Below are positions 19,565 to 40,899 of a stretch of 48,857 nucleotides of DNA, piece after piece; the first letter of the stretch is position 1, and each line of letters starts with the position of its first letter. The stretch is from contig JAJONO010000030.1 of assembly GCA_021323535.1 (NCBI GenBank), positions 1 to 48,857 on the forward strand, given 5' to 3'. The translations under genes and the position numbers were made by a program. The notes under the pieces were generated by a model. It worked only from the letters and a program-made list of their open reading frames with translations. It was not told where the DNA came from and ran no database searches. Source of the stretch: Bacteroidota bacterium (GTDB taxonomy: Bacteria > Bacteroidota > Bacteroidia > B-17B0 > Aurantibacillaceae).

Positions 19565-20827
19565 ATGGACAGAGCCATTGAAAAGAAAAAGTGGAACAGT
19601 AAAAAAATTATGATCATCGGAATTGCTTCCGGTATTGTTCTCTTGATTGCACTTAGTATTTATTTTACCTCGGGAGGTTCAAAATTAAATGTAAACACCG
19701 AACGATTAACCATCAGTGAAGTTAAGAAAGGACCATTCAAAGAATTTATTCCTGTGAATGGAATAGTACTTCCTCTCACAACCATTTATCTCGATGCTAT
19801 GGAAGGCGGAAGAGTGGAAGAGAAATTTGTAGAAGACGGAGCCATGATGAAACAAGGCGATCCTATTTTAAAATTATCTAATACTGATCTTGAACTCAGC
19901 CTCGCCAACCAGGAAACGTCTGTATTCAATCTCTTAACACAGATGCAGATCTCCAGAAACGCCGCCAAGCAAAATACCATTATGAAACTTAACCAGGGAA
20001 CTGATGTTGAAAGTTCATATAAAGAAGCGGAACGCATTTATTTTCTTAACAAAAAACTTTACGAAGACAAAGCCATCTCGCAACAGGAGTTTAAGCAATC
20101 TGAAAATAATTTCAATTATTATGTCCAGAAGAAAAAACTCACGGAACAGATCCTTAAATCCGATTCTCTTTCTACAAAAGAGGAAATGAGCCAGGCCCAG
20201 GAATCCTATAAACGAACTCAGGAAGCATTGAGGATCATGCGTAAAAAAGTAGAAGATCTTATTGTGCGCGCGCCAATAGACGGGCAATTAACTTCACTGG
20301 ATGCTGAAATCGGTCAGAATAAAAACAAAGGCGAACGTTTAGGGCAAATTGATGTGACCACCGGGTTTAAAGTAAGAGTAGAAATTGATGAGCATTATAT
20401 TTCAAGAATTTTCAGCGGTCTGGTTGGCGAATTTACTTTCGCGGGTAAGGATTACAAACTGGCCATTCATAAAGTGTATTCACAGGTGAAGAACGGAAAG
20501 TTTCAGGTGGATATGAAATTTGAAGGCGACGTGCCTAAGGAGATCCGTCGCGGACAAACCTTACAGATACGCCTTGCGCTCAGTGACGAAACACAGGCAT
20601 TACTTCTTGCAAAGGGAGGATTTTATCAGCAAACCGGAGGCAACTGGGTATTTAAATTAAATGATGATGGATCGGTTGCTTATAAAGTAGATGTTCAGCT
20701 TGGTCGTCAGAATCCGGAATATTACGAAGTTATTTCAGGTTTGGAGCCCGGAGACAAAGTCATCACTTCCGGTTACGATAATTATGAAAATACGCAAGAG
20801 CTGATTTTAAAAGAAACAGCGAAGTAA
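19565..20827 (+). CDS. HlyD/MacA-type membrane fusion protein (periplasmic adaptor)
   Basis: The 420-residue protein has a cytosolic tail KKKWNSKK and one membrane helix at about residues 15-35. A first beta/lipoyl half follows (VNGIVLPLTTIYLDAMEGGRV), then a long alpha-helical hairpin at about 110-235 rich in Q, E and K. A second lipoyl half (VEDLIVRAPIDGQL), a beta-barrel and a membrane-proximal domain (VISGLEPGDKVITSG) end it. It bridges an inner-membrane ABC permease and TolC. It is the first gene of the operon and the only adaptor in the window, so all seven permeases presumably share it. Its leader is highly structured. Confidence 0.93.
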   Translation: MDRAIEKKKWNSKKIMIIGIASGIVLLIALSIYFTSGGSKLNVNTERLTISEVKKGPFKEFIPVNGIVLPLTTIYLDAMEGGRVEEKFVEDGAMMKQGDPILKLSNTDLELSLANQETSVFNLLTQMQISRNAAKQNTIMKLNQGTDVESSYKEAERIYFLNKKLYEDKAISQQEFKQSENNFNYYVQKKKLTEQILKSDSLSTKEEMSQAQESYKRTQEALRIMRKKVEDLIVRAPIDGQLTSLDAEIGQNKNKGERLGQIDVTTGFKVRVEIDEHYISRIFSGLVGEFTFAGKDYKLAIHKVYSQVKNGKFQVDMKFEGDVPKEIRRGQTLQIRLALSDETQALLLAKGGFYQQTGGNWVFKLNDDGSVAYKVDVQLGRQNPEYYEVISGLEPGDKVITSGYDNYENTQELILKETAK

Positions 20828-20868
20828 TATTAATAACTAAAAATTGAGAACTAAAAACTATTTAAAGT

Positions 20869-21546
20869 ATGATAAAAGTAAATAACCTCGAAAAAATCTA
20901 CCGCACCGAAGACATTGAAACCGTGGCGCTGAATAATATTTCTTTCGAAATTAAAGAAGGAGAATTTGTTGCCATCATGGGCCCTTCGGGTTGTGGAAAA
21001 TCAACCCTGCTAAACATTATTGGTCTGCTCGATGATCTCGACGCGGGAAGTTTTATGTTCAATGGAACAGAGGTCGCAAAGTTCAGGGAACGTCAGCGTG
21101 CCGAAATGCGTAAACACAACATCGGGTTTGTATTTCAGAGTTTCAATCTTATTGATGAGCTCACTGTATTTGAAAATGTAGAGCTGCCATTGATCTATAC
21201 CGGCGTTGGCACTTCAGAGCGTAAAAAGATTGTTGACGAAGTGTTGGATAAAATTCAGATCGCGCATCGCCGTAACCATTACCCTCAGCAACTTTCCGGC
21301 GGTCAGCAACAACGTGTAGCTGTGGCAAGGGCCGTAGTTAACAAACCGAAGCTGATCCTCGCCGATGAGCCAACAGGAAATCTCGATTCGCGTAATGGCA
21401 ATGATGTTATGCAGTTACTTACTGATTTAAATGAGCAGGGAACCACCATTATCATGGTAACTCACTCCGAGCACGACGCACGTTACACACACCGCATCAT
21501 TAATATGCTCGATGGACAAATTGTTACGCAGAACATAAAAGTGTAA
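20869..21546 (+). CDS. LolD/MacB-type ABC transporter ATPase 1
   Basis: The 225-residue ATPase has Walker [10 protein letters not shown] near residue 38, signature [14 protein letters not shown] near 141, Walker [14 protein letters not shown] and the VTHSEH switch histidine. All catalytic motifs are intact. It closely resembles the satellite ATPase at 12130 (for example YRTEDIETVAL against [11 protein letters not shown]), so the two probably arose by duplication. It starts 41 bp after the adaptor gene and ends 2 bp before permease 1, so it belongs to the exporter operon and should energise the permeases. Confidence 0.95.
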   Translation: MIKVNNLEKIYRTEDIETVALNNISFEIKEGEFVAIMGPSGCGKSTLLNIIGLLDDLDAGSFMFNGTEVAKFRERQRAEMRKHNIGFVFQSFNLIDELTVFENVELPLIYTGVGTSERKKIVDEVLDKIQIAHRRNHYPQQLSGGQQQRVAVARAVVNKPKLILADEPTGNLDSRNGNDVMQLLTDLNEQGTTIIMVTHSEHDARYTHRIINMLDGQIVTQNIKV

Positions 21547-21548
21547 GG

Positions 21549-23948
21549 ATGTTTAAGAATTACATAAAAATTGCATGGCGTAACATTGGAAAAAACAAGT
21601 TATTCTCTGCTATAAATATCGCAGGACTTTCAGTAGGAATTACCTGCTGCATACTTATTTTCCTTTACGTACAAAATGAATTGAGTTTTGATAAATTTCA
21701 TGAGAAAGCGGATAGAATTGTACGTCTCACTCCATTGGCGCACCAACCCAAAAGCACAGAGCATTTCTCGTCCTCTTCACCCATTATGTCACAGAAACTA
21801 CATGCTGCTTTTCCAAGTATTGAGAACACTGTACGTTTTATAGGTTCAGGAAGGCCTTTATCCTATAACAATAAGAAGTTATACGAAACAAAAATAATTT
21901 TTGCCGACTCCACTTTCTTTGATGTATTTACATTTCCAATGATTGAAGGCGAGCCTTCAAAAGCCCTCACTGCGCCTTACAGCATTGTTATCACAGAATC
22001 TACCGCGAAGAAATATTTCGGGAATGAAAACGCCTTCGGTAAAATGATGCAGCTTTCAGATACACTGAATGTGATGGTAAAAGGAATCATTAAAGATGTG
22101 CCGCAGAATTCACATTTTACGTTTGACTGTGTTGTTTCAAGAAGCACGCTGGCGGACATGAGGAAGGCAGACATTGAAGGCTGGAAAGAAAATGAAGAAA
22201 GTTGGTTTAATTGTGATTCTTATTCGTATTTATTGATACGTGAAGATGTGAACATTCAGGCGCTGGAAGACAGAGCCAATAAATTCATGGAGCGCGAAAT
22301 GACAAACATCAAAAAAGAGGTTGGTATATGGTTTACGGTGGATTTTCAGCCTTTAACCGATATTCATTTAAAGTCCGACTTTGACGCAGAAACAAAAGGA
22401 ACAAACAACAGTGATATAACCTATGTGTACATTTTTTCGGGAACAGCAATTCTGATCCTGTTAATTGCCTGTTGCAACTTTATTAATTTATCTACTGCAA
22501 AATCATTGAACCGTTCCAAGGAAATTGGTTTACGAAAAGTAATAGGAGCGAGACGAATACAACTCATCATGCAGTTTCTTGGGGAATCACTTGTGTTCTC
22601 AGCAATTGCCAGTGTACTCTCCCTCATCCTGCTTCTGGTATTCATTCCGGTATTCAATTCTTTTATAGGCACTGAACTCTCTATGAATGTGAGCGTCATC
22701 TGGATTTATCTTGCCATTGTATTTTGTGTTGGTTTACTGGCAGGATTGTATCCGGCTCTTTTAATGTCGTCGTTCGCTCCTATCCGTTCATTAAAAGGAA
22801 ATATCACACATGGAATAGCCGATATTATTTTCCGGAAGGGACTCGTTGTGTTCCAGTTTTCAATTGCCGTTATTCTCATTATCTGCACTTCCCTGATTCT
22901 CGATCAGCTAAGTTTCATGCAAAACAGAAAAATAGGAATTAATAAAGAACAGGTACTCGCCATACAACTAAGCGTGAAAGATCATAACAAAGCCAAAGTA
23001 ATACTAGAGGAGTTAAAACGCAATCCGAAAATTGTAGCCGGGACCCTGAACAGTTTCAATTTTAAATCAATGGCGTATATCACTCTTTTACCCGAAGGCG
23101 CCGCACAGAATGAACTCACGGCATGCAATGTATTTTCCTGCGATGAAGATTTTCTGAAAACCATGAATATCAAAATCGTGAGCGGACGCGATTTTTCCAG
23201 AGATTTTCCAAGCGACGAGAAAGAAGCGTTTATTGTGAATGAAGCGGCTGTAAAAGAATTCGGATGGAAAACGCCAAAGGAGGCCCTTGGAAAAAAAATC
23301 GAATGGGCCTATGGTAAAACGGGACAAGTGATTGGTGTTACAGAAGACTTCAACTATAAGTCGCTGCACGAAAATGTGGCCCCTGTGCTTATTCATATTT
23401 TTAAGCCCTGGTACAGTAATGTGACGCTGCGTTTAAAAACCGACAATCTTACTCAAACCATGCAGGAACTTGAAACCACCTGGAAAAAAACCGCGATTGA
23501 AAGTCCCTTTAAATATTCTTTCCTTGAGGATGATTTCAACAGCCTGTATCGCTCCGAACAAAATCTGCGCTCTGTTCTCGGCGGCTTTACTTTTCTTTCT
23601 ATCGTAGTGGCTTGTTTAGGATTGTTTGGACTTGCCGCGTTTACCATTAAACAACGCTACAAGGAAATAGGTATCAGAAAAGTACTTGGCTCCAGCGTAA
23701 CAGGAATTGTACAACTATTGTCGAAGGATTTTTTAAAACTGGTTGTGATTTCCGTAGTGATAGCTGCTCCTGTTGCATGGTACGCCATGCATAAATGGCT
23801 GCAGGATTTCGCCTACAGAACCAATATCAGTTTATGGGTTTTTGTTGTTGCGGGAGCGCTTGCCATTCTCATTGCCTTTGGAACGGTTTGTTTCCAGGCA
23901 ATTCGTGCCGCTGTTGCAAATCCTGTTAAGAGTTTAAGAACGGAATAG
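21549..23948 (+). CDS. MacB/FtsX-type permease 1 of the array (subclass A)
   Basis: The 799-residue protein has helix 1 at about residues 19-41 (GLSVGITCCILIFLYVQNEL) and the first periplasmic domain with PLTDIHLKS. FtsX bundle 1 runs from about 285 with CCNFINLSTAKS and RSKEIGLRKVIGA. The mid helix is near 430-450, the second periplasmic domain at 455-670, and FtsX bundle 2 from about 677 with YKEIGIRKVLGSS. The C-terminal tail is NPVKSLRTE. Two FtsX modules in one chain mean that one polypeptide could form a complete pseudo-dimeric permease. The gene is 2 bp after ATPase 1 and 4 bp before permease 2, so it is the best candidate core partner of both. Confidence 0.94.
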   Translation: MFKNYIKIAWRNIGKNKLFSAINIAGLSVGITCCILIFLYVQNELSFDKFHEKADRIVRLTPLAHQPKSTEHFSSSSPIMSQKLHAAFPSIENTVRFIGSGRPLSYNNKKLYETKIIFADSTFFDVFTFPMIEGEPSKALTAPYSIVITESTAKKYFGNENAFGKMMQLSDTLNVMVKGIIKDVPQNSHFTFDCVVSRSTLADMRKADIEGWKENEESWFNCDSYSYLLIREDVNIQALEDRANKFMEREMTNIKKEVGIWFTVDFQPLTDIHLKSDFDAETKGTNNSDITYVYIFSGTAILILLIACCNFINLSTAKSLNRSKEIGLRKVIGARRIQLIMQFLGESLVFSAIASVLSLILLLVFIPVFNSFIGTELSMNVSVIWIYLAIVFCVGLLAGLYPALLMSSFAPIRSLKGNITHGIADIIFRKGLVVFQFSIAVILIICTSLILDQLSFMQNRKIGINKEQVLAIQLSVKDHNKAKVILEELKRNPKIVAGTLNSFNFKSMAYITLLPEGAAQNELTACNVFSCDEDFLKTMNIKIVSGRDFSRDFPSDEKEAFIVNEAAVKEFGWKTPKEALGKKIEWAYGKTGQVIGVTEDFNYKSLHENVAPVLIHIFKPWYSNVTLRLKTDNLTQTMQELETTWKKTAIESPFKYSFLEDDFNSLYRSEQNLRSVLGGFTFLSIVVACLGLFGLAAFTIKQRYKEIGIRKVLGSSVTGIVQLLSKDFLKLVVISVVIAAPVAWYAMHKWLQDFAYRTNISLWVFVVAGALAILIAFGTVCFQAIRAAVANPVKSLRTE

Positions 23949-23952
23949 ATCC

Positions 23953-26373
23953 ATGAGGAATCATTTTAAAATAGCGTTACGCAACCTTTTTAAAAGAAAG
24001 GGATATTCTGCATTAAACATTCTTGGGTTGACGCTGGGAATGACCAGCTGCCTGCTTATCTTTCATTACTCCTCTTACGAACAAAGCTATGATAGTCATG
24101 TTCATGATGCTGAAAACATCTACAGGCTTGAAATGGACAATTTTGAAAATGGAGAACTAACAGAAAAATGGGCAACTACATTTCCAGCCATTGCGCCAAT
24201 CTTAAAAAAAGAATATGCCAGTGTAAGTGAATCGGGTCGTTTATATCACGCGAAATTTTTAATAGCCAACGACGACCAAAATAAAAAGTTCCATGAAACA
24301 AAAGGTTATTTTGCTGACCCCTCTATCATTGATCTTTTTAATATTCAGCTTGTTTCCGGAGATCGGTCAAGCGCTTTAAATAGTCCTGATAAAATCATCA
24401 TTTCTGAACAAATGGCCGAAAAATATTTCGGTAAAGAAACAGCGATTGGAAAAAAACTCACCGTGAAGAATGTTCCCTTCAATTCATTCGAAGTAAGCGG
24501 AGTATTTAAGGCGCACCCGAAAAACTCACATCTCGTTGTTGAATATCTTATTTCCTTTCAAACATTCAGTAATTGGTATCGTACCTGGCGTGAAGGTTTT
24601 AATACGGAGACCGGCTTTGAGATCATTGACTTTTTTACTTACGTCAAACTGCAAAAGGGTGTCAGCCCGAAAAAATTTGAAAAGGAGCTTGTTCTTTTCA
24701 GTGATAAATATCTTAAACCCGATAAAATAAATAAAAGCCGGATCGAATTCAAACTCATTAACATCCGTGACATTCATCTTTATTCTAATAGCAACCAGGA
24801 GGCAGAGACGAACGGAAATGGTCAGCGGATAAAGTATCTTTTTATCATAGCCATTTTTATTATCTGTATTGCATGGATCAATTATATCAATCTTACCACC
24901 GCGCGATCAGTAGAAAGAGCAAAAGAAGTGGGTGTAAAAAAAGTACTGGGGGCATTAAGAAAAGATCTCTTTAAACAATTTACCCTGGAAAATTGCATTC
25001 TTAATTCTGTTTCCCTGATCTTGTCCATCGTCTTATTTTATTGCTCTCTCACTTACTTCGATCTGTTCACAGGAAGAGATGCATACACAGACCTTACTCT
25101 TTCAGCGAAAAACTGGTTCGTTTTCAGCGCCATCTTCCTTGTGGGTACTTTTCTGTCCGGAATTTATCCTGCAGTGGTACTTTCTTCATTTCTACCCGTT
25201 AAAGTTCTTAAAGGAGCCTTTAAAAATTCAACGAGTGGACTCTTTCTGCGAAAATCACTGATAGTAACGCAATTCGCTATAACAGTTATGCTTATCAGTG
25301 GAACTATAGTAGTGTATGAGCAATTGCAATACATGCGAAACAAAGATCTCGGGATAGATATAAAACAGACTTTAATACTGCGGGGTTCGGCATCAACAAA
25401 AAGAGATGTGTACCCGCTGAAATTCACTTCCTTTAAGAATGAATTGTTGAGCCACTCCGACATAAAAAGTGTAACCGCATCAAATCATGTTCTGGCACAG
25501 GAAATTTTTGAAGGTGGGGGAGCAGAAAGACTTGATGGAAATCAAAAAAAAGTTCCTTACATGTCAATACTCCGAGGCGACAAAGACTTCACGAATGCTT
25601 ACGGTCTTAAAATTATAAACGGCAGGGATTTTCTGAATGATACCGAAACAAAAACAGTCATTATCAATGAAAGTTCAGTCGAAGCTTTGGAATTTAGTTC
25701 TCCTCAGGAAGCTCTGAATCATAAACTGATCCTGGATATAGATACTTTAACTATTGTAGGCGTGATGGCGGATTATCACCAGGAAGGACTGCAAAAACCC
25801 ATTATACCTATTCTACTCCGCCTTACTCCACAGATAAGAAATTATTACTCCATAAAAATAAGCTCTGAAAATGTTCACGCCACAATCGACAAAATCAACG
25901 CGACCTGGAAAAATTATTTCCCTGACGAGCCCTTCAATTATTTTTTCCTTGATGAATCGTTTGATCAGCAATACAAAACAGATCTCTTATTCGGGAAGGT
26001 TTTCGGACTATTTGCATTCCTGGCCATATTCATTGCTTGTTCGGGCTTACTTGGATTATCCTCTTACAACATTTTACAACGTACAAAAGAAATAGGGATC
26101 CGCCAGGTATTGGGTGCTTCCGCTAAAAGAATAGTGGTGTTACTATTAAAGGATTTTATTGCTCCGGTTTTAACGGCCCTGGTTATAGCTCTGCCGCTCG
26201 GATGGATTCTCATGCATTATTGGCTACAGGATTATGCATATCGTATCACGCTTTCAGCCTGGATGTTTGCTTTCGCCAGTCTGGTGGCTATTTCTATCGC
26301 GCTACTTACAATTTATTTCCAGGCAATGCGGGCGGCTGTTGCTAACCCGGTTAAAAGTTTAAGAACTGAATAG
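23953..26373 (+). CDS. MacB/FtsX-type permease 2 of the array (subclass B)
   Basis: The 806-residue protein has the same two-module layout. Helix 1 reads LNILGLTLGMTSCLLIFHY, FtsX bundle 1 begins near 292, the mid helix is near 432-452, and FtsX bundle 2 begins near 679 with RTKEIGIRQVLGAS. The signature AWINYINLTTARS and RAKEVGVKKVLG mark subclass B, shared with permeases 5 and 7. It is closest to permease 7 (both have MTSCLLIFHY and FLAIFIACSGLLGLS). It begins 4 bp after permease 1, so the A-B pair is translationally linked. A palindromic repeat follows its stop. Confidence 0.93.
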   Translation: MRNHFKIALRNLFKRKGYSALNILGLTLGMTSCLLIFHYSSYEQSYDSHVHDAENIYRLEMDNFENGELTEKWATTFPAIAPILKKEYASVSESGRLYHAKFLIANDDQNKKFHETKGYFADPSIIDLFNIQLVSGDRSSALNSPDKIIISEQMAEKYFGKETAIGKKLTVKNVPFNSFEVSGVFKAHPKNSHLVVEYLISFQTFSNWYRTWREGFNTETGFEIIDFFTYVKLQKGVSPKKFEKELVLFSDKYLKPDKINKSRIEFKLINIRDIHLYSNSNQEAETNGNGQRIKYLFIIAIFIICIAWINYINLTTARSVERAKEVGVKKVLGALRKDLFKQFTLENCILNSVSLILSIVLFYCSLTYFDLFTGRDAYTDLTLSAKNWFVFSAIFLVGTFLSGIYPAVVLSSFLPVKVLKGAFKNSTSGLFLRKSLIVTQFAITVMLISGTIVVYEQLQYMRNKDLGIDIKQTLILRGSASTKRDVYPLKFTSFKNELLSHSDIKSVTASNHVLAQEIFEGGGAERLDGNQKKVPYMSILRGDKDFTNAYGLKIINGRDFLNDTETKTVIINESSVEALEFSSPQEALNHKLILDIDTLTIVGVMADYHQEGLQKPIIPILLRLTPQIRNYYSIKISSENVHATIDKINATWKNYFPDEPFNYFFLDESFDQQYKTDLLFGKVFGLFAFLAIFIACSGLLGLSSYNILQRTKEIGIRQVLGASAKRIVVLLLKDFIAPVLTALVIALPLGWILMHYWLQDYAYRITLSAWMFAFASLVAISIALLTIYFQAMRAAVANPVKSLRTE

Positions 26374-26375
26374 AG

Positions 26376-26414: not shown

Positions 26415-26436
26415 TAATTAATATAAAAAAAGAAGA

Positions 26437-28815
26437 ATGCTTAAAAATTATTTTATAACTGCCTTTCGGAACCTCTGGAGAAATAAATTTTTCTCTGTCA
26501 TTAATATTTTTGGATTGAGTGTAGGAATTTCCTGCTGCATGCTCATTTTTTTATACGCGAAAGACGAAACCAGTTTTGACAGATTTCACGAAAACAAGGA
26601 GAACATTTATCGTCTCACTGCCGATCTAATTGGGAAAGAGGTAAGCAAATGCGGAAGCACAGGCATGATGCCGGGTCCCGCCTTTAAAAGCAATCTTCCT
26701 GAAGTAGCAGAATTTGTGAGGATACAATCTGCTTTCTATAATATTAAAAATGGTCCGCAAATTCTGGAACAGGATGCCATTTATGCCGACGATAATTTTT
26801 TCTCCGTATTCTCCTTTCCACTGATCTATGGAAATCCAAAAACAGCACTGAGTAATCTTCATTCCATTGTTATTTCAGAAAACACTGCTAAAAAGTATTT
26901 TGGAAAAACCGATGTCATGGGACAGATCATGCAGGTAAACGTGGATGAAAAATGGATACCATTTGTTGTGTCAGGCATCGCGAAAAACGCGCCGCAAAAC
27001 TCATCCATTAAACTAGACATGGTTTTACCAATGAAATTTACCCAATCCATTTATGACGATACACATTGGGCCAATTTCTTCCTGAACACATTTGTTGTTA
27101 TGAAACCCGGCGTAAATGTTGCCCAGGCAGAACTTAAAATGAACAGCGTTTATGCTACAGAAGCTGCCGAACAAATAATAAAGGACGAAGCAAACTACGG
27201 GCCGCAGGATAAAGTTGTTTATCATTTACAACCCATGTCAGACATTCATCTCAATACCGAATATAATGGCGGGAACGGATTAAAGGAAGGAAGCAACCCC
27301 ATGTACTCATATATTTTATGCGGAATCGCTATTTTTATTCTCATCATCGCCTGCATCAATTTTGTGAATCTCACTGTTGCCCGTTCTCTAAAACGCGCTA
27401 AAGAAATAGGAATTCGAAAAGTAGTAGGTAGTCATAAAAAACAATTGGTCATTCAATTCATGGGAGAGTCCTTCATTCTTAGTTTTCTTTCATTCAGTCT
27501 CGCCATTGCATTAACTTCTCTTTCACTTCCATTTTTCAACTCCTTAGCTGAAAAGGCACTTTCGTTTTCATATCTGCTCGATACAAAACTTATCGCGGGT
27601 TACATTCTTTTATTTTTAGTGACCGGTTTCCTTGCTGGGTTTTATCCGGCTCTGGTGCTTTCAGGTTTTAATCCTGTAGAAACATTGTATGGCAGATTCA
27701 GATTTACCGGAAAAAATTATTTATCAAAAGGATTGATCGTCTTTCAATTTACATTGGCCACATTTCTTATCATTGCTACAGTTACCATCTACTCTCAATT
27801 CACTTTTCTTATTAATTACGATCTGGGCATCAATACAGATAATGTTATCCGCACAAAAACCCCACCAATAGACGCGGCGCATTTTGAAATTTTTAAGCGC
27901 GAGTTAAAAAAAGACCCTTCCATTCTACTTGTTACAGGCGAGCAAGGTGGCACGTGGGGAACCATGGCGCATATCAATGGTGACAAAAACATAGATTTTA
28001 ATTACAGGCTCGTGGACGAAAACTTTCTTAGTCTCTTTCAGATACCAATCGCGTTTGGGAGAAGCTTCATTAAAGAAAGTTCAGACACCATAGAATCTGT
28101 AATGGTAAACGAAACGTTTGTGAAAACAGCAGGATGGAGAAATCCGATTGGCGAGACAGTTGATTTCTTTTACAATAAGCAAAAATTCAAAGTCATTGGT
28201 GTGGTTAAAGATTATCACTTCGCCGCGCTTACGGAAACCATAAAGCCGCAGTTATTTACCATCAGTAAGAGGCACAAATACGGCACCATTTTTATTAAAG
28301 TTGCCGAAGGGTCCAAGGGCCGTGCCATTCATCATATTGAAAAAACCTACAAAACACTTTACACGATGCAGCCCACGAATTATGTATGGCTAAAAGAAGA
28401 CAGGGATAGTCAATATAACCGTGAAGCCAAATGGAAACAGATCATTACGTTCTCCACTTTTCTTACTGTATTTATTTCCTGTATTGGTTTATTTGGCCTT
28501 GCTGCTTTATCGGCCGAAAAACGCGCAAAAGAAATTGGTATTCGAAAAGTATTGGGCGCTTCGGTAACTACGATCGTGCAAAAATTATCCACTGACTTTT
28601 TAAAGCTGGTGCTTCTTGCCGGAATTATTGCTTCGCCTCTTGCCTGGTGGGTGATGAACAAATGGCTGCAGGATTATCCTTATCGTATTGAAATGAAGAC
28701 CACTATTTTTGGACTTGCTATTGTTACTGTTGTACTGGTATCGTTGATCACTGTTTTATTTCAGTCGCTCAAAGCTGCTGTAGCTAACCCTGTAAAAAGT
28801 TTAAGAACTGAGTAA
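26437..28815 (+). CDS. MacB/FtsX-type permease 3 of the array (subclass A)
   Basis: The 792-residue protein has helix 1 (FGLSVGISCCMLIFLY), a periplasmic domain with PMSDIHLNT, and FtsX bundle 1 from about 291 with ACINFVNLTVARS and RAKEIGIRKVVGS. The mid helix is near 430, FtsX bundle 2 starts near 668 with RAKEIGIRKVLGAS, and the tail is NPVKSLRTE. The helix 1 text is very close to permease 1, pointing to a tandem duplication. It is isolated by palindromic repeats on both sides, so unlike permeases 1 and 6 it has no closely coupled B-type partner. Confidence 0.93.
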   Translation: MLKNYFITAFRNLWRNKFFSVINIFGLSVGISCCMLIFLYAKDETSFDRFHENKENIYRLTADLIGKEVSKCGSTGMMPGPAFKSNLPEVAEFVRIQSAFYNIKNGPQILEQDAIYADDNFFSVFSFPLIYGNPKTALSNLHSIVISENTAKKYFGKTDVMGQIMQVNVDEKWIPFVVSGIAKNAPQNSSIKLDMVLPMKFTQSIYDDTHWANFFLNTFVVMKPGVNVAQAELKMNSVYATEAAEQIIKDEANYGPQDKVVYHLQPMSDIHLNTEYNGGNGLKEGSNPMYSYILCGIAIFILIIACINFVNLTVARSLKRAKEIGIRKVVGSHKKQLVIQFMGESFILSFLSFSLAIALTSLSLPFFNSLAEKALSFSYLLDTKLIAGYILLFLVTGFLAGFYPALVLSGFNPVETLYGRFRFTGKNYLSKGLIVFQFTLATFLIIATVTIYSQFTFLINYDLGINTDNVIRTKTPPIDAAHFEIFKRELKKDPSILLVTGEQGGTWGTMAHINGDKNIDFNYRLVDENFLSLFQIPIAFGRSFIKESSDTIESVMVNETFVKTAGWRNPIGETVDFFYNKQKFKVIGVVKDYHFAALTETIKPQLFTISKRHKYGTIFIKVAEGSKGRAIHHIEKTYKTLYTMQPTNYVWLKEDRDSQYNREAKWKQIITFSTFLTVFISCIGLFGLAALSAEKRAKEIGIRKVLGASVTTIVQKLSTDFLKLVLLAGIIASPLAWWVMNKWLQDYPYRIEMKTTIFGLAIVTVVLVSLITVLFQSLKAAVANPVKSLRTE

Positions 28816-28818
28816 CGG

Positions 28819-33789: not shown

Positions 33790-33823
33790 ATCCTTTAATA
33801 TTAAACCATAAATTAAATTTAAA

Positions 33824-36298
33824 ATGATACAGACTTATTTTAAAATGACATGGCGGAAGTTGTCGCGTAATAAAACGAGCAGCTTTATAAATATTTCTGG
33901 TCTCGCTATTGGCATGGCGTCATTCATTATGATCCTGTTATATGTTCAGGATGAGCTGAAGTATGATAAATTTTTAAATAATCATGATAAAATATACCAG
34001 GTTACTTTGAATGGAAATTCAGGAGAACAAGAATTTTTCATAGGGAAAACACCAGCCTCGGTAAGTTCGGCGCTGATGAGAAATTTTCCTGAAATAGAAA
34101 GCGCTGTGAGAATATACAAGCCTGGTGATATGATTGTAAGATCGGAATCGTCGCTTCACAAAGAAAGTTTTACTGAAAGTTCTGTCCTTGCTGTCGATTC
34201 CTGTTTTTTCAATGTCTTTCCGTTTGAATTAAAAAAAGGAAATGCGGCAAATTGTCTCATGGATCCAGGGTCTGTAGTGATAACGGAAAACATAGCCGAT
34301 AAATATTTCGGGAGCGCTGATCCCCTGGGAAAAATTCTTTTAATGGATAAGGACCAGAAACCATTCAAGATAACAGCGGTTCTGAAAAATCTTCCTGAAC
34401 AATCTACACTGCGATTTGATATGCTTACTTCTACCGAAGCTTTTCCTGTTGTAAAAAGGATGAGTTGGAGCTGGGTGTGGTTACAGGTATGTACTTATAT
34501 CCGTCTGAAAGATAAAACAGCAACCGATCCGGCAAGCATTCAGAAGCTGGATGAGAAATTTCCGGCCATGGTGAAACTTGAATCGGGTCCGGCATTTAAA
34601 CGTGTTGGGCAATCGCTCGACGACATGATAAAGAAAGGAGGTAAATGGGATCTTCATCTTCTGCCATATACAAAAATACATTTATACTCAGGAGAGATCG
34701 GACAGATCCTCGACACGGTGAGTGATATTAAATACGTTTATACTTTTTCGATCATTGCTTTCTTCATTATTTTACTGGCCTGCGTTAATTTCATGAATCT
34801 GTCCACAGCACAGGCTTCCTCAAGAGCTAAAGAAGTTGGCGTAAGAAAAGTACTAGGCTCAGAAAAAAATCAGCTTATACGGCAGTTTCTCGCGGAAGCT
34901 TTGCTTTTTAGTTCTATCGCTGCAATCATATCAATTATCCTTGTTATCATTCTTCTGAATCCTTTCAATTCAATTTCCGGAAAAAATCTTAGTCCTCAGC
35001 TGATTTTTTCAGGCGAAGTTCTTTTATATACTGTCGGATTAATTGTTTTAACAGGATTTCTTGCGGGAATTTATCCTGCTTTTTATTTATCATCGTTTCA
35101 GCCCGCCGCAGTTATCAAAGGAATAAAACAGATCAGTTCCGGTTTAGGAAGCAGGTTCATAAGAAATGGGCTCGTTGTTTTCCAGTTCAGCGTATCAACC
35201 GCTATGATCATTTGCACCGTAATTGTATTCAAGCAACTCGATTATATGCAAACCACCGACATAGGTTTAAATAAAGAACAGATCATCGTTATAAAAAACA
35301 GCGACAGGTTAGGCAATAAAGAAACAGCCTTTAAAAATCTCTTAGCACAATCTTCAGAAATTAAAAAAGTAAGTATTGCTTCGGGGGTTCCAACACGTGA
35401 AAATTTTGGCGACGGATATGTTCCTGAAGTTTCAACAGCAGGCGACCAGTTAGTTCCGGATATCAGCCTTTCATCTTTTATTGTGGATGACGATTTTATT
35501 CCTTCGCTGGATATAAAAATTCTTAAGGGTAGAAATTTCTCAAAAGAGTTTTCAGATTCAGGCTCTGTTATTCTTAATGAAAAGGCAGTAAAAGACGTTG
35601 GCTGGAAAAACCCTGTAGGAAGTTACATGACGTATCCGGGAAACGCCAACCAGAGATTTAAAGTGATTGGTGTTGTAAAAGATTTTAATATCAATTCGCT
35701 TCATTCACCGGTAACACCATTTGCACTGTTCCATAAATCCTCCAACACCTATAATGTAGGCTCAGGTTATACTATTGTAAAATGTAAAGAGAATTCGGTT
35801 GCCGCAACAATAGAAATCATAAAAGAAAAATGGAAGCAATTTTCACCGTCATTACCTCTCGATCTTATGTTCCTTGATGAAGAGTTTGAAGCTTTGTATA
35901 AAGCGGAAAAACGTGTGAGCCAGGTGTTCTTTATTTTTACAGGGCTTTCTATTTTTGTTGCCTGCCTCGGACTCTTTGGACTTGCTATTTACAATACGGA
36001 ACGTCGTACTAAAGAAATCGGTGTGAGAAAAGTTCTTGGCGCTTCGGTGAGCCGGCTTGTTACATTATTATCAGGAGAGTTTATAAAACTGATCGCGGTA
36101 TCTGTGTTCATAGCGTTCCCGGTTGCATGGTGGGCAATGAATAAATGGCTGGAAAACTTTGCATATCGAACAACGCTTGATTGGTGGATCTTTGCTGGAG
36201 CGGCGTTCGTGTCGGTTTCATTAACCTTATTCACAGTGGGCTTTCATATTATTAAAGCGGCGGTAACAAACCCGGTAAAAAGCCTGAGGACAGAATAA
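33824..36298 (+). CDS. MacB/FtsX-type permease 6 of the array (subclass A, longest)
   Basis: At 824 residues this is the longest permease. Helix 1 reads ISGLAIGMASFIMILLYVQDEL. The first periplasmic domain carries an insertion (about residues 235-280, charged, DDMIKKGGKWDLHLLPYTKIHL). FtsX bundle 1 starts near 304 with ACVNFMNLSTAQA and RAKEVGVRKVLGS, the mid helix is near 446, and FtsX bundle 2 starts near 702 with RTKEIGVRKVLGAS. The tail is NPVKSLRTE. It is only 2 bp before permease 7, so it forms a tightly coupled A-B pair, as permeases 1 and 2 do. Confidence 0.93.
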   Translation: MIQTYFKMTWRKLSRNKTSSFINISGLAIGMASFIMILLYVQDELKYDKFLNNHDKIYQVTLNGNSGEQEFFIGKTPASVSSALMRNFPEIESAVRIYKPGDMIVRSESSLHKESFTESSVLAVDSCFFNVFPFELKKGNAANCLMDPGSVVITENIADKYFGSADPLGKILLMDKDQKPFKITAVLKNLPEQSTLRFDMLTSTEAFPVVKRMSWSWVWLQVCTYIRLKDKTATDPASIQKLDEKFPAMVKLESGPAFKRVGQSLDDMIKKGGKWDLHLLPYTKIHLYSGEIGQILDTVSDIKYVYTFSIIAFFIILLACVNFMNLSTAQASSRAKEVGVRKVLGSEKNQLIRQFLAEALLFSSIAAIISIILVIILLNPFNSISGKNLSPQLIFSGEVLLYTVGLIVLTGFLAGIYPAFYLSSFQPAAVIKGIKQISSGLGSRFIRNGLVVFQFSVSTAMIICTVIVFKQLDYMQTTDIGLNKEQIIVIKNSDRLGNKETAFKNLLAQSSEIKKVSIASGVPTRENFGDGYVPEVSTAGDQLVPDISLSSFIVDDDFIPSLDIKILKGRNFSKEFSDSGSVILNEKAVKDVGWKNPVGSYMTYPGNANQRFKVIGVVKDFNINSLHSPVTPFALFHKSSNTYNVGSGYTIVKCKENSVAATIEIIKEKWKQFSPSLPLDLMFLDEEFEALYKAEKRVSQVFFIFTGLSIFVACLGLFGLAIYNTERRTKEIGVRKVLGASVSRLVTLLSGEFIKLIAVSVFIAFPVAWWAMNKWLENFAYRTTLDWWIFAGAAFVSVSLTLFTVGFHIIKAAVTNPVKSLRTE

Positions 36299-36300
36299 TC

Positions 36301-38736
36301 ATGTGGTATTTCAATTTTAAAATAGCCTATCGCAATCTTCTTAACCGAAAAGGATTTTCGCTCCTGAATATTCTTGGGCTCACTATTGGAATGACAAGCT
36401 GCCTGCTGATCTTTCATTATGTTTCCAATGAAAAGAGTTTCGACAATTTTGTTTCTGAAGATACTTATCGTATCCGACTTGATTATTACCAGGAAGGAAA
36501 ACTCGAATGGCAATCTGCTACTTCTTATCCGGGAATAGCTCCCGCTTTGAAAGTGGATTTTCCAGAGGTAAAATCAACGTGCCGTTTAATAGATGCCGAT
36601 GTTGTTCTCATCAATAAAAATTCGAACACTAAGTTTCACGAAAAGCAGGGATATTTTGGCGATACTACCTTCTTTTCAATGTTCAATGTAAATCTCATTG
36701 AAGGAAACAAGCAAACTGCTTTAAATGGTCCTTCTAAAATTATATTGTCTTCTGTTACTGCAAAAAAGTATTTCGGAAACAGTCCTGCCGTTGGAAAAAC
36801 CATTACTGTAAAACATGCCTCGCTGGAATCTGATTCATTAGGGATGCCATTTGAAGTTACAGGGGTTTTTGATTTTCCAAAAAATTCACATCTTGATATT
36901 CAATACCTGTTTCCTTTATCCACTTTAAAGAGCATGATAAAAGATACTGCCAATTCTATTGAAAAACTATTCGACTGGTATGACTATTACACTTACATTA
37001 AACTGGCTCCGGGTTCTGATCCCAAAAAACTGGAAGCGGCGTTTCCTGCCTTCTGCAAAAAATACATGGTCGAAAATCAAGAGGGTGGAAACATGTATAA
37101 TGTATTGTCGTTAATCCCAGTGAAAGATATTCATCTCCACTCAAATTATAACCAGGAAGCCGAAGTGAATGGCAGCGGACGAATGGTTTACTTTTTGTTT
37201 CTGATTGCCATTTTCATTATTGTTATCGCCTGGATCAATTACATTAATCTTACCACTGCCCGCTCTGCCGAACGCGCAAAAGAAGTTGGTGTAAAAAAAG
37301 TGGTTGGAGCCGGCCGCTCCGATCTCATTAAACAGTTTTTTGCTGAAAACATTCTTCTTAACTCCACGTCACTTGTAATATCTGTCATATTGTTCTTATC
37401 ACTATCCAATACATTTGATCATTTTACACAACGTTCAGATTATAGTGTCACGGTGCTTTCGTCGTCTTACTGGATGTGGTTCATTCTGTTATTCGCTTTC
37501 GGAACTTTTATTTCCGGAATTTATCCCGCTTTTGTGCTTTCGGGATTTCAGCCTGTAAAAGTTCTTAAAGGCGCCTTTAAAAATACGGCAAGCGGCAACT
37601 GGCTAAGAAAGGGGCTAACGGTGAGTCAGTTTGTTGTTTCGGTTGTTCTGATCGCCGGAACCATCATCGTTTTTCAGCAGGTACAGTTTATGCGTAAAAA
37701 AGAACTTGGCGCTAACATTAACCAAACTCTTGTGCTTGAAGGCGCAGGCACAGCAAGTCCTTCGCGTTACATGAAACTTTATCAACCATTTAAAACCGAA
37801 GTTCTGCAATTACCAGGAATAAAAAGTCTGGCTGCCTCAAGCAATGTGATGGGACAGGAAATTTACTGGACCAATGCAGCGAAGCTCTTTGGCGCAAACG
37901 ATAAAAGTTATATTACAGCCTATAATCTTGGTGTTGATTATGATTTTGTTCCGGCTTATGAATTGAAAATGGTAGCCGGAAGAAATTTTTCACCATCGTT
38001 TAAGTCAGATGAAAAAGGCGTTCTTTTAAATGAACACGCCGTACGTCTTCTTAATGCAAAAAGTGCTGCTGATATTATCAATAAAAAAATAGCTAATGGC
38101 AATGATACCCTGGCTGTAATTGGTGTAATTGCGGATTATCATCATGAAGGTGTTCACAAGGCCGTGAATCCTCTCCTGATAAAACTAACACCCGACATCA
38201 GGCGATATTACTCTATCAAGATGACCGGTTCCAATCCGCAGGAAACAATCGCTTCCCTTAAAAAAATATGGGACAGAAATTTTCCGGATGACGAATTCAA
38301 ATATTTTTTCCTGGACGAAACGTTTCAGGCACAATATACAGCCGATGAATTATTCGGAAAAGTATTCAGCATTTTTGCTTTTCTTGCCATATTCATTGCC
38401 TGTTCGGGGCTCTTAGGTTTATCAGCTTATAGCATTTCTCAAAGAAGTAAGGAAATAGGGATCCGGAAAGTTCTGGGTGCTTCCGTAAAAAGCATATTGG
38501 TTCTTTTGTCCCGCGATTTTATGTTACTGGTACTCGTTGCGTTTCTGGTTGCAATTCCTCTAAGCTGGTATTTAATGAACTCCTGGTTACAGGATTTCGC
38601 ATACCGTGTCAGCATCAGCTGGTGGGTATTTGTTACTGCCGGGGGTATTGCATTCTTCATGGCTCTTCTTACCATTACTACACAAACATTAAAAGCAGTT
38701 AAAGAAAATCCCATAAAAAATTTAAAAACAGAGTAG
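36301..38736 (+). CDS. MacB/FtsX-type permease 7 of the array (subclass B)
   Basis: The 811-residue protein is closest to permease 2: helix 1 LNILGLTIGMTSCLLIFHY, AWINYINLTTARS, RAKEVGVKKVVGA, then FLAIFIACSGLLGLS and RSKEIGIRKVLGAS. The mid helix is near 433 and FtsX bundle 2 starts near 685. The tail is NPIKNLKTE, a conservative variant of the shared NPVKSLRTE. The start ATG is 2 bp after the stop of permease 6, so translation is coupled. ATPase 2 follows after a 71-bp gap that holds a palindromic repeat. Confidence 0.93.
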   Translation: MWYFNFKIAYRNLLNRKGFSLLNILGLTIGMTSCLLIFHYVSNEKSFDNFVSEDTYRIRLDYYQEGKLEWQSATSYPGIAPALKVDFPEVKSTCRLIDADVVLINKNSNTKFHEKQGYFGDTTFFSMFNVNLIEGNKQTALNGPSKIILSSVTAKKYFGNSPAVGKTITVKHASLESDSLGMPFEVTGVFDFPKNSHLDIQYLFPLSTLKSMIKDTANSIEKLFDWYDYYTYIKLAPGSDPKKLEAAFPAFCKKYMVENQEGGNMYNVLSLIPVKDIHLHSNYNQEAEVNGSGRMVYFLFLIAIFIIVIAWINYINLTTARSAERAKEVGVKKVVGAGRSDLIKQFFAENILLNSTSLVISVILFLSLSNTFDHFTQRSDYSVTVLSSSYWMWFILLFAFGTFISGIYPAFVLSGFQPVKVLKGAFKNTASGNWLRKGLTVSQFVVSVVLIAGTIIVFQQVQFMRKKELGANINQTLVLEGAGTASPSRYMKLYQPFKTEVLQLPGIKSLAASSNVMGQEIYWTNAAKLFGANDKSYITAYNLGVDYDFVPAYELKMVAGRNFSPSFKSDEKGVLLNEHAVRLLNAKSAADIINKKIANGNDTLAVIGVIADYHHEGVHKAVNPLLIKLTPDIRRYYSIKMTGSNPQETIASLKKIWDRNFPDDEFKYFFLDETFQAQYTADELFGKVFSIFAFLAIFIACSGLLGLSAYSISQRSKEIGIRKVLGASVKSILVLLSRDFMLLVLVAFLVAIPLSWYLMNSWLQDFAYRVSISWWVFVTAGGIAFFMALLTITTQTLKAVKENPIKNLKTE

Positions 38737-38745
38737 ATGACAATG

Positions 38746-38789
38746 GTGAAGCGTCCTGATAGATTATCGGCTGCTTTACAATGCTTCAC
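38746..38789. repeat. palindromic intergenic repeat, copy 4
   Basis: Between permease 7 and ATPase 2. GTGAAGC (38746-38752) and GCTTCAC (38783-38789) frame CCTGATAGATTATCGG and CTGCTTTAC. The spurious ATG at 38781 lies inside the repeat, which is one reason the downstream ATPase start is placed at 38808. Confidence 0.55.
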
Positions 38790-38807
38790 TTTATAAAAAT
38801 AAAATAT

Positions 38808-39473
38808 ATGATAGAGTTAAAGAACATTTATAAGTACGTAACAGTTGGTGGAAACAAAACATTTTTGCTAAAGGATCTTAACCTCACGTTTAACGAAGGA
38901 GAATTTGTTTCTATTATGGGACCATCGGGATCTGGGAAATCAACTTTACTGAACGTGATAGGAATGCTGGACGGTTTTGATGAAGGCGAATATTTTTTCC
39001 TTCATGAGTCTGTTCATAAAATGAAAGAAAAACAACGCTCGCAATTATACAAACAATACATTGGTTTTGTTTTCCAGGCTTATCATCTCATTGACGAATT
39101 AACCGTGTACGAAAATATTGAAACTCCCCTGCTCTACCAGGATTATTCGGCCGGCGAAAGAAAAGCTATGGTATCGGATATGCTCGACCGTTTTAATATT
39201 GTAGGAAAGAAAGATCTTTTCCCGGAACAACTTTCGGGCGGACAACAACAATTGGTTGGTATCGCGCGCGCCCTTATTGCAAAACCGAAATTATTGCTGG
39301 CCGATGAACCAACCGGAAATCTGAATTCGAAACAAGGCCAGGAAATTATGGAGCTATTTAAAAAACTAAATCAGGAAGACGGTGTCACCATCATACAGGT
39401 AACACACTCCGAAAAAAACGCCGAATACGGCTCACGCATTATTAATTTACTCGACGGAAGAATTGACAAATAA
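38808..39473 (+). CDS. LolD/MacB-type ABC transporter ATPase 2, variant D-loop
   Basis: The start is set at ATG 38808 ([11 protein letters not shown]); the in-frame ATG at 38781 lies inside a palindromic repeat. The 221-residue ATPase has Walker [10 protein letters not shown] near residue 38, signature [14 protein letters not shown], Walker [14 protein letters not shown] and the VTHSE switch histidine. Two features differ from ATPase 1 and the satellite ATPase: QQQL instead of QQQR after the signature, and NLNS instead of NLDS in the D-loop. The Walker B glutamate is kept, so hydrolysis may persist. It could form a heterodimer with ATPase 1 or serve only some permeases. TolC follows 4 bp after its stop. 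Confidence 0.93.
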
Positions 39474-39477
39474 ACCT

Positions 39478-40899
39478 ATGAAAAAATTTCTTATTCCACT
39501 ATTCGTTTCTCTTTTGTTTCCTTCTCTAAAAGCGCAGGACTCGGTTGTTTATACACTTAAACAATGTATCGACATTGCAGTAAAGAACAACATCACTGTA
39601 AAAACTTCAGAATCCCAAGCACAAACTGCCAATGCTTTGTTGCAACAATCACGCGCCTCTAATCTTCCTTCTGTTTCCGCCTATATTAACCAGGGAATGA
39701 GCCAGGGAAAGAGTATCAATCCTTTTACGAATACATTCATTAATCAACAGGTTATGACAGGACAGTACGGCATCAACGGCAGTCTCTTGTTGTTTGGAGG
39801 TTTTAGCACTTATAATTCGATGAGACAAAGCGCCTATAATTATCAGGCCGGGAAAATGGATCTTGAACAGGCAAAAACAGATATTACCATGAATGTGATG
39901 CTGGCCTATCTTCTTGTATTAAGCAATGAAGAACAACTCAACCAGGCCGCTTCACAGGTGGAGGTAAGCAAAGCTCAGGCCGAACGACTGACGGTTCTCG
40001 AAAAGAACAACGCGGTTTCTCCTTCGGTATTGTATGATACAAAAGGACAACTTGCCAATGACAAACTCAGTTACATCAATGCAAAAAATACTTTGGTCAC
40101 CGCCAAAAATACATTGTTTCAATTAATGAACATGAATCTTGTTTCCAATGCAAAATTTGAAAAAATAAACGCGCCTGCGGAATTAAAAAAATATGGATCC
40201 ACTTCTGAAGCAGTTTTTTCTGTTGCATCAAAAGATTTTCCGCTTATCAAAGCGGCGGAATACAGGCGAATGAGTGCCACGAAAGCCTTACATTCTGCAA
40301 GGGGACAATTATTCCCAAGCCTTTCATTGGTGGGAAGTGTTGGAACAAATTATTCCGATGCCGCCACAACGCAAAAACTTATTGGTGTTTCTGATGCGAG
40401 CACAGATGCCTATGTTACCGTTAATAATTCCAATGTGCCCGTATATGCTCCACAATACAATTACAGCAGTGAAAAAATTAATTTTAACGATCAGTTTAAA
40501 AACAATCTTAATTCTTATGTTGGTGTCAGCTTAAGGTTATCGCTTTTTAATTCGTTGCAGACAAAAACACAAATGAGCATCGCAAAAATCAACAAGCATC
40601 AATCCGAAAATCTAAAACAAACAACAAGCGTAAGATTAAAATCATCCATCGATCAGGCCCACTCCGATATGACCGCCGCTTACGAACGATATGAAATTCT
40701 CCAGGAACAAGTTGGTTTTTATTCTGAGTCGTTCAAGATCGCGACTTCCAAGTTTGAAAAAGGCGCCATTGGTACCGTTGAATATACCGTATCTAAAAGT
40801 AATACCGATAGAGCTTCCATGAATCTTATCGCCGCTAAATACGACTACATTCTCAAATGTAAAATACTCGATTATTATTCGGGGAAAATTCCGTTGTAG
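39478..40899 (+). CDS. TolC-family outer-membrane efflux protein
   Basis: The start is set at ATG 39478; the TTG 15 bp earlier overlaps the ATPase gene. The 473-residue protein has signal peptide MKKFLIPLFVSLLFPSLKAQ. It then has the two OEP repeats at about residues 25-230 and 250-470, with long Gln- and Ala-rich helices (for example LAYLLVLSNEEQLNQAASQVEVSKAQAERL and NLIAAKYDYILKCKILDYYSG as helix segments). A variable Asn/Tyr-rich insertion at about 300-345 is probably a loop. It forms the outer-membrane duct of the tripartite system. It is the last gene of the operon and ends 3 bp from the convergent GlxA-type regulator. Confidence 0.94.
   Translation: MKKFLIPLFVSLLFPSLKAQDSVVYTLKQCIDIAVKNNITVKTSESQAQTANALLQQSRASNLPSVSAYINQGMSQGKSINPFTNTFINQQVMTGQYGINGSLLLFGGFSTYNSMRQSAYNYQAGKMDLEQAKTDITMNVMLAYLLVLSNEEQLNQAASQVEVSKAQAERLTVLEKNNAVSPSVLYDTKGQLANDKLSYINAKNTLVTAKNTLFQLMNMNLVSNAKFEKINAPAELKKYGSTSEAVFSVASKDFPLIKAAEYRRMSATKALHSARGQLFPSLSLVGSVGTNYSDAATTQKLIGVSDASTDAYVTVNNSNVPVYAPQYNYSSEKINFNDQFKNNLNSYVGVSLRLSLFNSLQTKTQMSIAKINKHQSENLKQTTSVRLKSSIDQAHSDMTAAYERYEILQEQVGFYSESFKIATSKFEKGAIGTVEYTVSKSNTDRASMNLIAAKYDYILKCKILDYYSGKIPL

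Follow-up and report, generated by a model that had tools for sequence, protein, structure and literature searches.

What would an exporter operon with one periplasmic adaptor, one outer-membrane duct and two ATPases do with seven permeases in tandem, and how would they all be powered? The operon lies in a stretch of Bacteroidota DNA of 48,857 nucleotides (the window; contig JAJONO010000030.1), where eleven plus-strand open reading frames follow one another over 19565-40899 (420, 225, 799, 806, 792, 802, 808, 824, 811, 230 and 478 amino acids in operon order). Because the intergenic gaps are 2-72 bases and the ATPase 2 (ATP2) and TolC reading frames overlap by 11 bases, there is no room for any other gene. 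The features, with the annotation supporting each, are as follows.

16564..17910, minus strand: histidine kinase (Pfam HATPase_c; conserved neighbour in relatives)
17900..19252, minus strand: NtrC-type sigma-54 activator with receiver domain, facing the operon (Pfam Response_reg, Sigma54_activat, HTH_8)
19437..19442, plus strand: TGGCAC, a candidate sigma-54 promoter element (-24), 128 bases ahead of the adaptor
19565..20827, plus strand: periplasmic adaptor, HlyD/MacA type, DarC-like (HlyD_3; TIGR01730)
20869..21546, plus strand: ATPase 1 (ATP1), DarD/LolD-like, canonical motifs (ABC_tran)
21549..23948, plus strand: permease 1, double FtsX/MacB_PCD, eight transmembrane (TM) helices (Pfam; predicted model)
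23953..26373, plus strand: permease 2 (Pfam; sister of permease 7)
26437..28815, plus strand: permease 3 (Pfam; same-genus orthologues)
28888..31296, plus strand: permease 4 (Pfam; clade support 0.966)
31363..33789, plus strand: permease 5 (Pfam; clade support 0.897)
33824..36298, plus strand: permease 6 (Pfam; clade support 0.98)
36301..38736, plus strand: permease 7 (Pfam; sister of permease 2)
38781..39473, plus strand: ATP2, diverged (ABC_tran; D-loop Asp to Asn)
39463..40899, plus strand: TolC-type outer-membrane duct (Pfam OEP, two stretches)

These coordinates and Pfam matches agree with the gene order given by an earlier, sequence-only reading of the window (adaptor, ATPase, seven permeases, ATPase and TolC, with nothing else between). 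A consensus scan of the gaps between permease genes found no terminator-like plus-strand site, totals being near those of its shuffles. The window also holds an additional permease-ATPase pair at 9753-12819.

The permeases were classified by domain and by predicted fold. Pfam MacB_PCD and two FtsX matches were present in 7/7, and two MacB_PCD stretches were scored in 6/7, the remaining permease (31363-33789) having one over threshold. The predicted model of permease 1 (mean pLDDT 87.3) has eight long TM helices and aligned over its whole length with the pseudo-symmetric E. coli YbbP (Z 25.7, the best whole-length match), followed by BceB, and its halves matched MacB (5nik, 5gko, 5lil), LolC and LolE. 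The earlier suggestion that each permease is a complete pseudo-dimer thus gains support from the modelled fold of permease 1. Since a HlyD/MacA-type adaptor and a TolC duct share one operon with FtsX-type four-TM units bearing a MacB-type periplasmic domain (Pfam in 7/7; fold in permease 1), the operon is best read as a variant MacAB-TolC (type VII ABC) system, a tripartite apparatus with a putative role in export. It differs from MacAB-TolC in that the ATPase is separate from the permease (no MacB-like fusion was found, and the MacB equivalog NF007826 scored far below cut-off), the permease is duplicated within one chain, and there are seven permeases and two ATPases.

Three further systems were compared with the operon. 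The darobactin exporter DarBCD has the same kinds of adaptor, ATPase and double permease, with NCBIfam matches that extend over almost the whole length (DarC, 173 bits; DarD, 311 bits for ATP1; DarB, 121-165 bits for the four permeases given) that nevertheless missed the cut-offs of NF038007, NF038008 and NF038010 (311 of 375, 165 of 700 and 173 of 450 bits at best); the adaptor scored above cut-off with TIGR01730 and matched the DarC model over its whole length. DarBCD differs in having one permease and one ATPase (PMC9055067, excerpt), and single-permease arrays lacking ATP2 contain the same gene kinds as DarBCD. No peptide-maturation gene was found among the scanned neighbour genes of the operon. 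Heterologous hosts did not need DarBCD, the named exporter closest to this operon, in order to produce darobactin (PMC9055067, excerpt). The acidobacterial duplicated orphan permease (ADOP, TIGR03434) matched the four permeases given over their whole length (308, 268, 309 and 244 bits, against a cut-off of 622.3). ADOP genes are described as not adjacent to an ATPase gene, whereas the permeases described here are no orphans and sit with an adaptor, a duct and ATPases at both array ends. For YbbAP we know of no adaptor or TolC; the permease 1 model has eight TM helices rather than ten, and NF041854 gave 18-20 bits against 999 where reported. E. coli YbbAP shares a pseudo-symmetric duplicated permease and two separate ATPase subunits per permease but differs in the two extra linking helices of YbbP, its two copies of one ATPase and its TesA partner (PMC12646458, excerpt).

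The YbbP and BceB fold matches raise the alternative of envelope defence or sensing, by which the permeases would strip lipids and peptides, antimicrobial or stray, from the inner membrane in a Bce- or YbbAP-like manner and signal to the kinase. Bce-type modules pair a 10-TM permease carrying one large extracellular domain with an adjacent intramembrane-sensing kinase, and such kinases have almost no periplasmic loop. The window's kinase, the one examined by hydropathy and N-terminal sequence, likewise has two N-terminal TM helices joined by hardly any periplasmic loop, and genes with DUF4097 and DUF2807 (Toastrack-type) lie inside several arrays, a Toastrack-type domain having been tied to membrane stress (PMC11237479, excerpt). 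The two MacB-type periplasmic domains and the eight helices of the permease 1 model are nonetheless unlike BceB, the regulator is of the NtrC type, and the dedicated adaptor together with TolC (in most arrays) points to passage across the outer membrane. We regard this alternative as unlikely.

The layout recurs across Bacteroidota: adaptor-ATP1-[permease]n-ATP2-TolC, with genes for NtrC and a histidine kinase facing it. Relatives' loci were taken as the best 80 of 576, with downstream stretches added for 31 and ten more read within the flank, and array sizes are manual counts from locus maps. Phylum-scale loci were first read only downstream of the adaptor; an upstream check added two permeases, the one in G325 lying immediately before the adaptor and the one in G337 divergent, and left range, median and p unchanged. 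Left out of the sizes were loci cut by contig ends, several re-ordered loci (G338, G314, G155, G373, G230, G432, G376, G389 and L090) and G454. The 51 arrays from ATP2-bearing genomes had an n of 2-19 (median 5) and the 21 adaptor loci lacking ATP2 one of 0-3 (median 1), a difference (Mann-Whitney p 1e-10) that is not corrected for kinship and may reflect lineage. Four adaptor loci had no neighbouring permease (G288, G396, G404, G451). ATP2 was missing from 27/92 adaptor-bearing genomes, 19 of whose loci were counted; seven of the 27 lay outside the counts (G349, G380, G411, G419, G435, G441, G455), and in four of these seven the TIGR03434 table places a permease immediately before the adaptor. 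Seven permeases is therefore an ordinary number for a family of one to about nineteen. In two ATP2-bearing genomes (G030, G001) a search with the window's TolC found no TolC-like gene beside ATP2.

Exactly one adaptor at E ≤ 1e-80 was found in 91/92 sampled adaptor-bearing genomes (five candidates scored per genome), most of which have strong duplicated-permease matches, and this lends indirect, sequence-based support to the earlier proposal that one adaptor may serve all permeases; adjacency and co-occurrence are themselves no proof of sharing. At E ≤ 1e-78 the best TIGR03434 match was present in 84/92 adaptor-bearing and 1/253 other genomes (Fisher-tested; two candidates scored per genome, table read by eye, threshold picked afterwards). 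The contrast depends on the threshold, because E ≤ 1e-60 (by eye) gave 89/92 against 28/253 adaptor-less genomes and a loose E ≤ 1e-20 matched 342/345 genomes and 9/14 control genomes. Loose per-genome permease candidates, a proxy that includes other MacB/LolC-type genes, had medians of 23 and 13 (within families, p 0.0025 for f45 and p 0.06 for f27). Among the matches listed, the named record with the highest adaptor identity was the MAG JAEUTP01 (82%). A close adaptor was present in only 7/36 same-genus genomes; the system is thus dispensable.

Are the permeases recent copies? At 30-51% pairwise identity, the seven are not. Within the window only permeases 2 and 7 are sisters (51%). Orthologues in the same genus are 54-66% identical for permease 1 and, in three genomes, 54-59% for permease 3. 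In the permease tree, the clade of permease 4 (support 0.966) takes in 62 permeases and 38 genomes, that of permease 6 (0.98) 53 permeases and 41 genomes, and the small clade of permease 5 (0.897) 6 genomes. Sister pairs inside one genome numbered 6/127, and recent tandem amplification was rejected on this count and on the identities. Ratios of dN/dS, as whole-domain averages over 25 of 59 pairs, were 0.03-0.13 where computable, saturated synonymous sites having left several without a value. Positive selection in the periplasmic domains, which the sequence-only reading had proposed to look for, was not seen at this level (maximum ratio 0.13). On these sequence comparisons the permeases are subfamilies of old standing that have diverged and are strongly constrained by purifying selection.

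Such conservation bears on the possibility that the extra permeases are accumulated, parked paralogues that do not use the adaptor and have little function. The same layout exists with 0-3 permeases, unrelated genes are inserted in some arrays and fragments make up 8 of the 292 permease ORFs, as accumulation would allow; the remaining 97% are full length, however, the dN/dS ratios are low, and four orthologous permeases keep an identical order in L098 and L103. That the best conserved parts of the seven are the C-tail (73% identity) and coupling helices (54 and 63%), likely the ATPase-docking segments, also argues against accumulation; the periplasmic domains are variable (29%). Low periplasmic-domain identity is usual across the type VII superfamily (PMC5985334, excerpt) and so is no proof of different cargo. 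The mostly single-permease relatives with decayed extras that would have favoured accumulation were not found: among listed close relatives with the array end read, single-permease arrays occurred only in L111 and L112. We judge accumulation improbable.

Across the phylum, loci that lack ATP2 and carry 0-3 permeases do exist as a minority. Unrelated inserts include PIN toxin-antitoxin-like pairs and, in L094, recR-, glycosyltransferase- and Trp-biosynthesis-like genes. A candidate small-protein partner between L081 permeases was rejected, as its frames were the reverse strand of PIN toxin-antitoxin-like genes in the two places checked.

The two ATPases differ in a constant way. The window's ATP2 retains Walker A, the Walker B Glu, the signature and the H-loop, whereas its D-loop Asp is replaced by Asn and the Arg after LSGGQQQ by Leu. 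The D-loop Asp was present in 50/50 ATP1-type copies (kept in all ATP1 copies read) and missing from 54/54 ATP2 copies read (Asn in 40/40 of a first set; of 14 further readable copies, 6 have Asn and 8 have His); one more ATP2-like sequence (G230), whose residue the pattern could not read, stands outside the count. An ATP2 orthologue was found in 35/35 genomes (one partial copy) and in 18/20 of a second set, and at ≥300 bits in 65/92 adaptor-bearing against 1/253 other genomes (eight candidates scored per genome). We tried the idea that one permease type requires ATP2 and rejected it: permeases at loci without ATP2 fall in several of the same clades, so ATP2 is not bound to one type, and ATP1 alone must suffice at those loci. 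Two transporters merged in one operon, ATP1 serving some permeases and an ATP2 homodimer others, would fit the position of the ATPases at opposite array ends in the window and the Walker A, Walker B and signature motifs that both keep, but this is very doubtful given the single adaptor, ATP2 directly behind ATP1 in G338, G314 and G373, and the lost D-loop Asp, from which an ATP2 homodimer would be expected to suffer by analogy with TAP, where loss of one D-loop Asp is tolerated and of both is not (PMC4242082, excerpt).

Regulation was examined upstream of the adaptor. An NtrC gene, 57-84% identical, occupies the same place at most, though not all, of the best 80 of 576 loci. TGGCAC was found on the plus strand of 19/36 upstream regions (window included) and on the other strand in 1, against a mean of 1.7 and a maximum of 7 in 300 shuffles. 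The -12 part of the candidate promoter is degenerate, and a full sigma-54 consensus was not found in these regions, the 16-base score being weakly above shuffles and the -24 hexamer alone enriched.

The reading that we favour, and hold to be somewhat probable, is that a shared base of one adaptor and an ATP1:ATP2 heterodimer drives alternative pseudo-dimeric permeases of differing specificity under sigma-54/NtrC control; the sharing, the heterodimer, the specificity of each permease, the regulation and the cargo are what we infer. The conserved base would consist of the adaptor, the TolC duct and the ATPase pair, and the seven permeases would be alternative, self-contained pseudo-dimers, each with two four-TM halves and two periplasmic domains. 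Each would use its pair of conserved coupling helices to bind two ATPase subunits and, by MacB-like mechanotransmission, may pass a periplasmic substrate to the common adaptor and duct. The variable periplasmic domains would set the substrate of each permease, the likeliest cargo being peptides or other amphipathic, membrane-active compounds. In multi-permease arrays ATP1 and the diverged ATP2 would form an asymmetric heterodimer, and at the ATP2-less loci, with their 0-3 permeases, ATP1 would do the work by itself. The kinase, with its near-absent periplasmic loop, and the NtrC activator would switch the operon on through sigma-54. To our knowledge, known type VII ABC systems use two copies of one ATPase.

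For a shared base with a permease array, the literature searched yielded only remarks on copy number: 28 and 33 ADOP copies in two Dyadobacter strains (PMC11573002, excerpt) and 102 in an acidobacterial MAG (PMC10564751, excerpt). More tentatively, and as a conjecture that we think could well be wrong, the operon may represent a plug-in platform in many Bacteroidota, in which one adaptor and an asymmetric ATP1:ATP2 heterodimer, its ATP2 fixed in a form that lacks the D-loop Asp, power tens of interchangeable pseudo-dimeric permeases, arrayed and scattered. Such a platform would give ADOP-like 'orphan' permeases the partners they lack, and ATP2 would have arisen, or been kept, as permeases multiplied. 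In Bacteroidota and Acidobacteria a single genome can encode dozens of long duplicated permeases of obscure function, and a single adaptor with a conserved, motif-altered ATP2 offers a concrete hypothesis for how they could be powered and how many specificities might share one way out of the cell. Should the heterodimer prove true, it would be a natural asymmetric ATPase pair within the type VII ABC superfamily.

ORF reading of the window placed eleven plus-strand ORFs in a row, separated by gaps of at most 72 bases. The Pfam matches along the row (HlyD_3 for the adaptor, ABC_tran for ATPase 1, MacB_PCD with FtsX for the permeases, ABC_tran for ATPase 2 and OEP for TolC) agree with the gene order given in the sequence-only reading, which was right. 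The array and its neighbouring regulators are as follows:

16564-17910, opposite strand to the operon: histidine kinase, upstream of the array
17900-19252, opposite strand to the operon: NtrC-type activator, upstream of the array
19565-40899, plus strand: adaptor, ATPase 1 (ATP1), seven permeases, ATPase 2 (ATP2) and TolC, from ORFs and Pfam

The seven permeases are 792-824 residues long, and NCBIfam gave long matches, all below cut-off, to darobactin exporter and ADOP permeases for the 4 of 7 reported. No terminator-like plus-strand site was found by window scan in the gaps between permease genes. Two TM helices stand at the N-terminus of the histidine kinase, with nearly no loop separating them. 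The -24 half of a sigma-54 promoter, TGGCAC, is present in 19 of 36 regions upstream of adaptors faced by an NtrC gene (including the window, at 19437), whereas shuffled regions gave 1.7 on average and 7 at most; the -12 half of this candidate promoter is degenerate. Farther off, the window encodes a LytTR regulator and a second NtrC-kinase pair (13008-15705). The latter is faced by a lone permease-ATPase pair (9753-12819, minus strand), made up of a separate double permease, 30-36% identical to the seven array permeases, and its own canonical ATPase, with no adaptor of its own; a similar permease-ATPase pair adjoins the array in genomes G001 and G032. The window also holds four genes alternating between AHSA1-type and 3-dmu-9_3-mt/glyoxalase-type (42028-43743, plus strand) and a glycosyl hydrolase family 5 protein that ends in a sorting tail for type IX secretion (43974-46751, minus strand).

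Within the genus, the adaptor was found at 79-83% identity in 7 of 36 genomes and at 33-34% in 2 more, with weak matches only in the remainder. Where the contig permits, arrays in the seven carry 5, 5, 4 and 4 permeases; identity is 89-94% for ATP1, 54-66% for orthologous permeases and 33-41% for other permeases. Loci of wider relatives were collected by a profile scan of named genomes (best 80 of 576 relatives), with downstream stretches added. We take the named genera among these 80 to belong to Chitinophagaceae, Sphingobacteriaceae and Flavobacteriaceae, except for a MAG titled Williamsia, presumably wrongly. Among the loci so extended, a kinase-NtrC pair facing adaptor-ATP1-[permease]n-ATP2-TolC recurs, partly re-ordered, with n from 1 (loci L111 and L112, both without ATP2) to 16 in Niabella pedocola (L107) and 19 in Sphingobacterium athyrii (L132), and seven is therefore an ordinary number. 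The idea of a multi-permease exporter holds in part, and the arrangement is much more general than had been supposed; shared use and transport are what we infer. At some adaptor loci without ATP2 (in genomes G325, G337 (L227, L228), G349, G380, G419 and G455) a permease immediately precedes the adaptor gene instead of following it.

In a tree of 392 permease sequences, window permease 4 falls in a clade of 62 members from 38 genomes (support 0.97), permease 6 in one of 53 members from 41 genomes (0.98) and permease 3 in one of 41 members from 32 genomes (0.75). Because just 6 of 127 sister pairs share a genome (window permeases 2 and 7 among them), the arrays are collections of old permease subfamilies in changing combinations. 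Fragments make up 8 of 292 permease ORFs, and dN/dS is 0.03-0.13, alike in periplasmic and membrane parts (25 pairs listed, where computable). Identity among the seven paralogues is 73% in the C-tail, 63% and 54% in the second and first coupling helices, 52% in TM1 and 29% in the periplasmic domains. The predicted model of permease 1 (mean pLDDT 87.3) shows eight long TM helices plus two periplasmic domains; over its whole length it is matched best by YbbP (Z 25.7, rmsd 8.8, 672 residues), and MacB, LolC and LolE match its halves. Since the pseudo-dimeric YbbP binds two ATPase subunits, according to the available text of PMC12646458, a single array chain can by analogy be a whole permease, as had been proposed for each of the seven.

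The D-loop Asp and the Arg after LSGGQQQ are kept in 50 of 50 ATP1-type copies and, in a second set, in every listed ATP1- or ATP0-type copy. In ATP2 the Asp is replaced by Asn in 40 of 40 copies, and by Asn (6) or His (8) in 14 further readable ones; these 54 copies all carry Leu or Ile in place of the Arg. Walker B Glu, LSGGQ and the H-loop His are invariant in the 40, and Walker A shows two single conservative changes. A single high-scoring ATP2 copy occurs in 35 of 35 genomes (one copy partial), and ATP2 is present in 18 of 20 of a further set, missing from the two single-permease ones. In a phylum sample of 345 genomes, 66 carry ATP2 (at least 300 bits), 65 of them with the adaptor. With kinship uncorrected, genomes with ATP2 have 2-19 permeases per array (51 arrays) and loci without it 0-3 (21 loci). 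In the peptide transporter TAP, losing the D-loop Asp in TAP2 has little effect, while loss in the other subunit uncouples transport and loss in both abolishes it (available text of PMC4242082); the same change in ABCG5/G8 was without effect (available text of PMC7756269). By analogy with TAP, a member of another ABC family, an ATP1:ATP2 heterodimer is likelier than ATP2 homodimers.

The adaptor is present in 92 of the 345 genomes, in exactly one copy in 91 (E ≤ 1e-80). A best match to TIGR03434, the ADOP model, at E ≤ 1e-78 was seen in 84 of 92 adaptor-bearing versus 1 of 253 other genomes (counted by eye, threshold chosen afterwards, Fisher's test with kinship uncorrected), and at 1e-60 in 89 of 92 versus 28 of 253. 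Four of the adaptor loci examined have no adjoining permease; all four genomes contain TIGR03434 matches, which suggests, without proof, that the adaptor may also serve scattered permeases.

Some arrays contain other genes. At L081:15281-15911 and L081:18483-19134, toxin-antitoxin-like PIN-domain genes with a small partner are inserted among the permease genes in reverse orientation. L109 and L127 have comparable frames on the reverse strand, which suggests inserts of the same kind there; such inserts might stabilise arrays against deletion. Two further kinds of insert recur within arrays, and Pfam was run on one gene of each. The first is a DUF2807 gene (L165:3587-4330, Winogradskyella), which has relatives in L127 and G418; the second is a Toastrack DUF4097 gene (L138:8498-9532, Flavisolibacter), related to genes in L094 and L107. 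The L094 array (Mucilaginibacter) holds a block including recR-, glycosyltransferase- and Trp-biosynthesis-like genes, with ORFs of like lengths at that position in L100 and L105.

Kinship with the darobactin exporter, together with the Toastrack-type domains, S41 proteases, beta-lactamase-fold enzyme and Rce1-like protease encoded within some arrays, hints at peptides or membrane-active compounds as cargo; heterologous hosts, for their part, did not need DarBCD to produce darobactin (available text of PMC9055067). The papers searched offered only copy-number remarks on such permeases. Each permease would use its two coupling helices to dock a pair of ATPases, pick up its own substrate on the periplasmic side and hand it to the common adaptor and then the duct. 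The operon is a predicted tripartite type VII ABC exporter in which a single base would be shared by many permeases.
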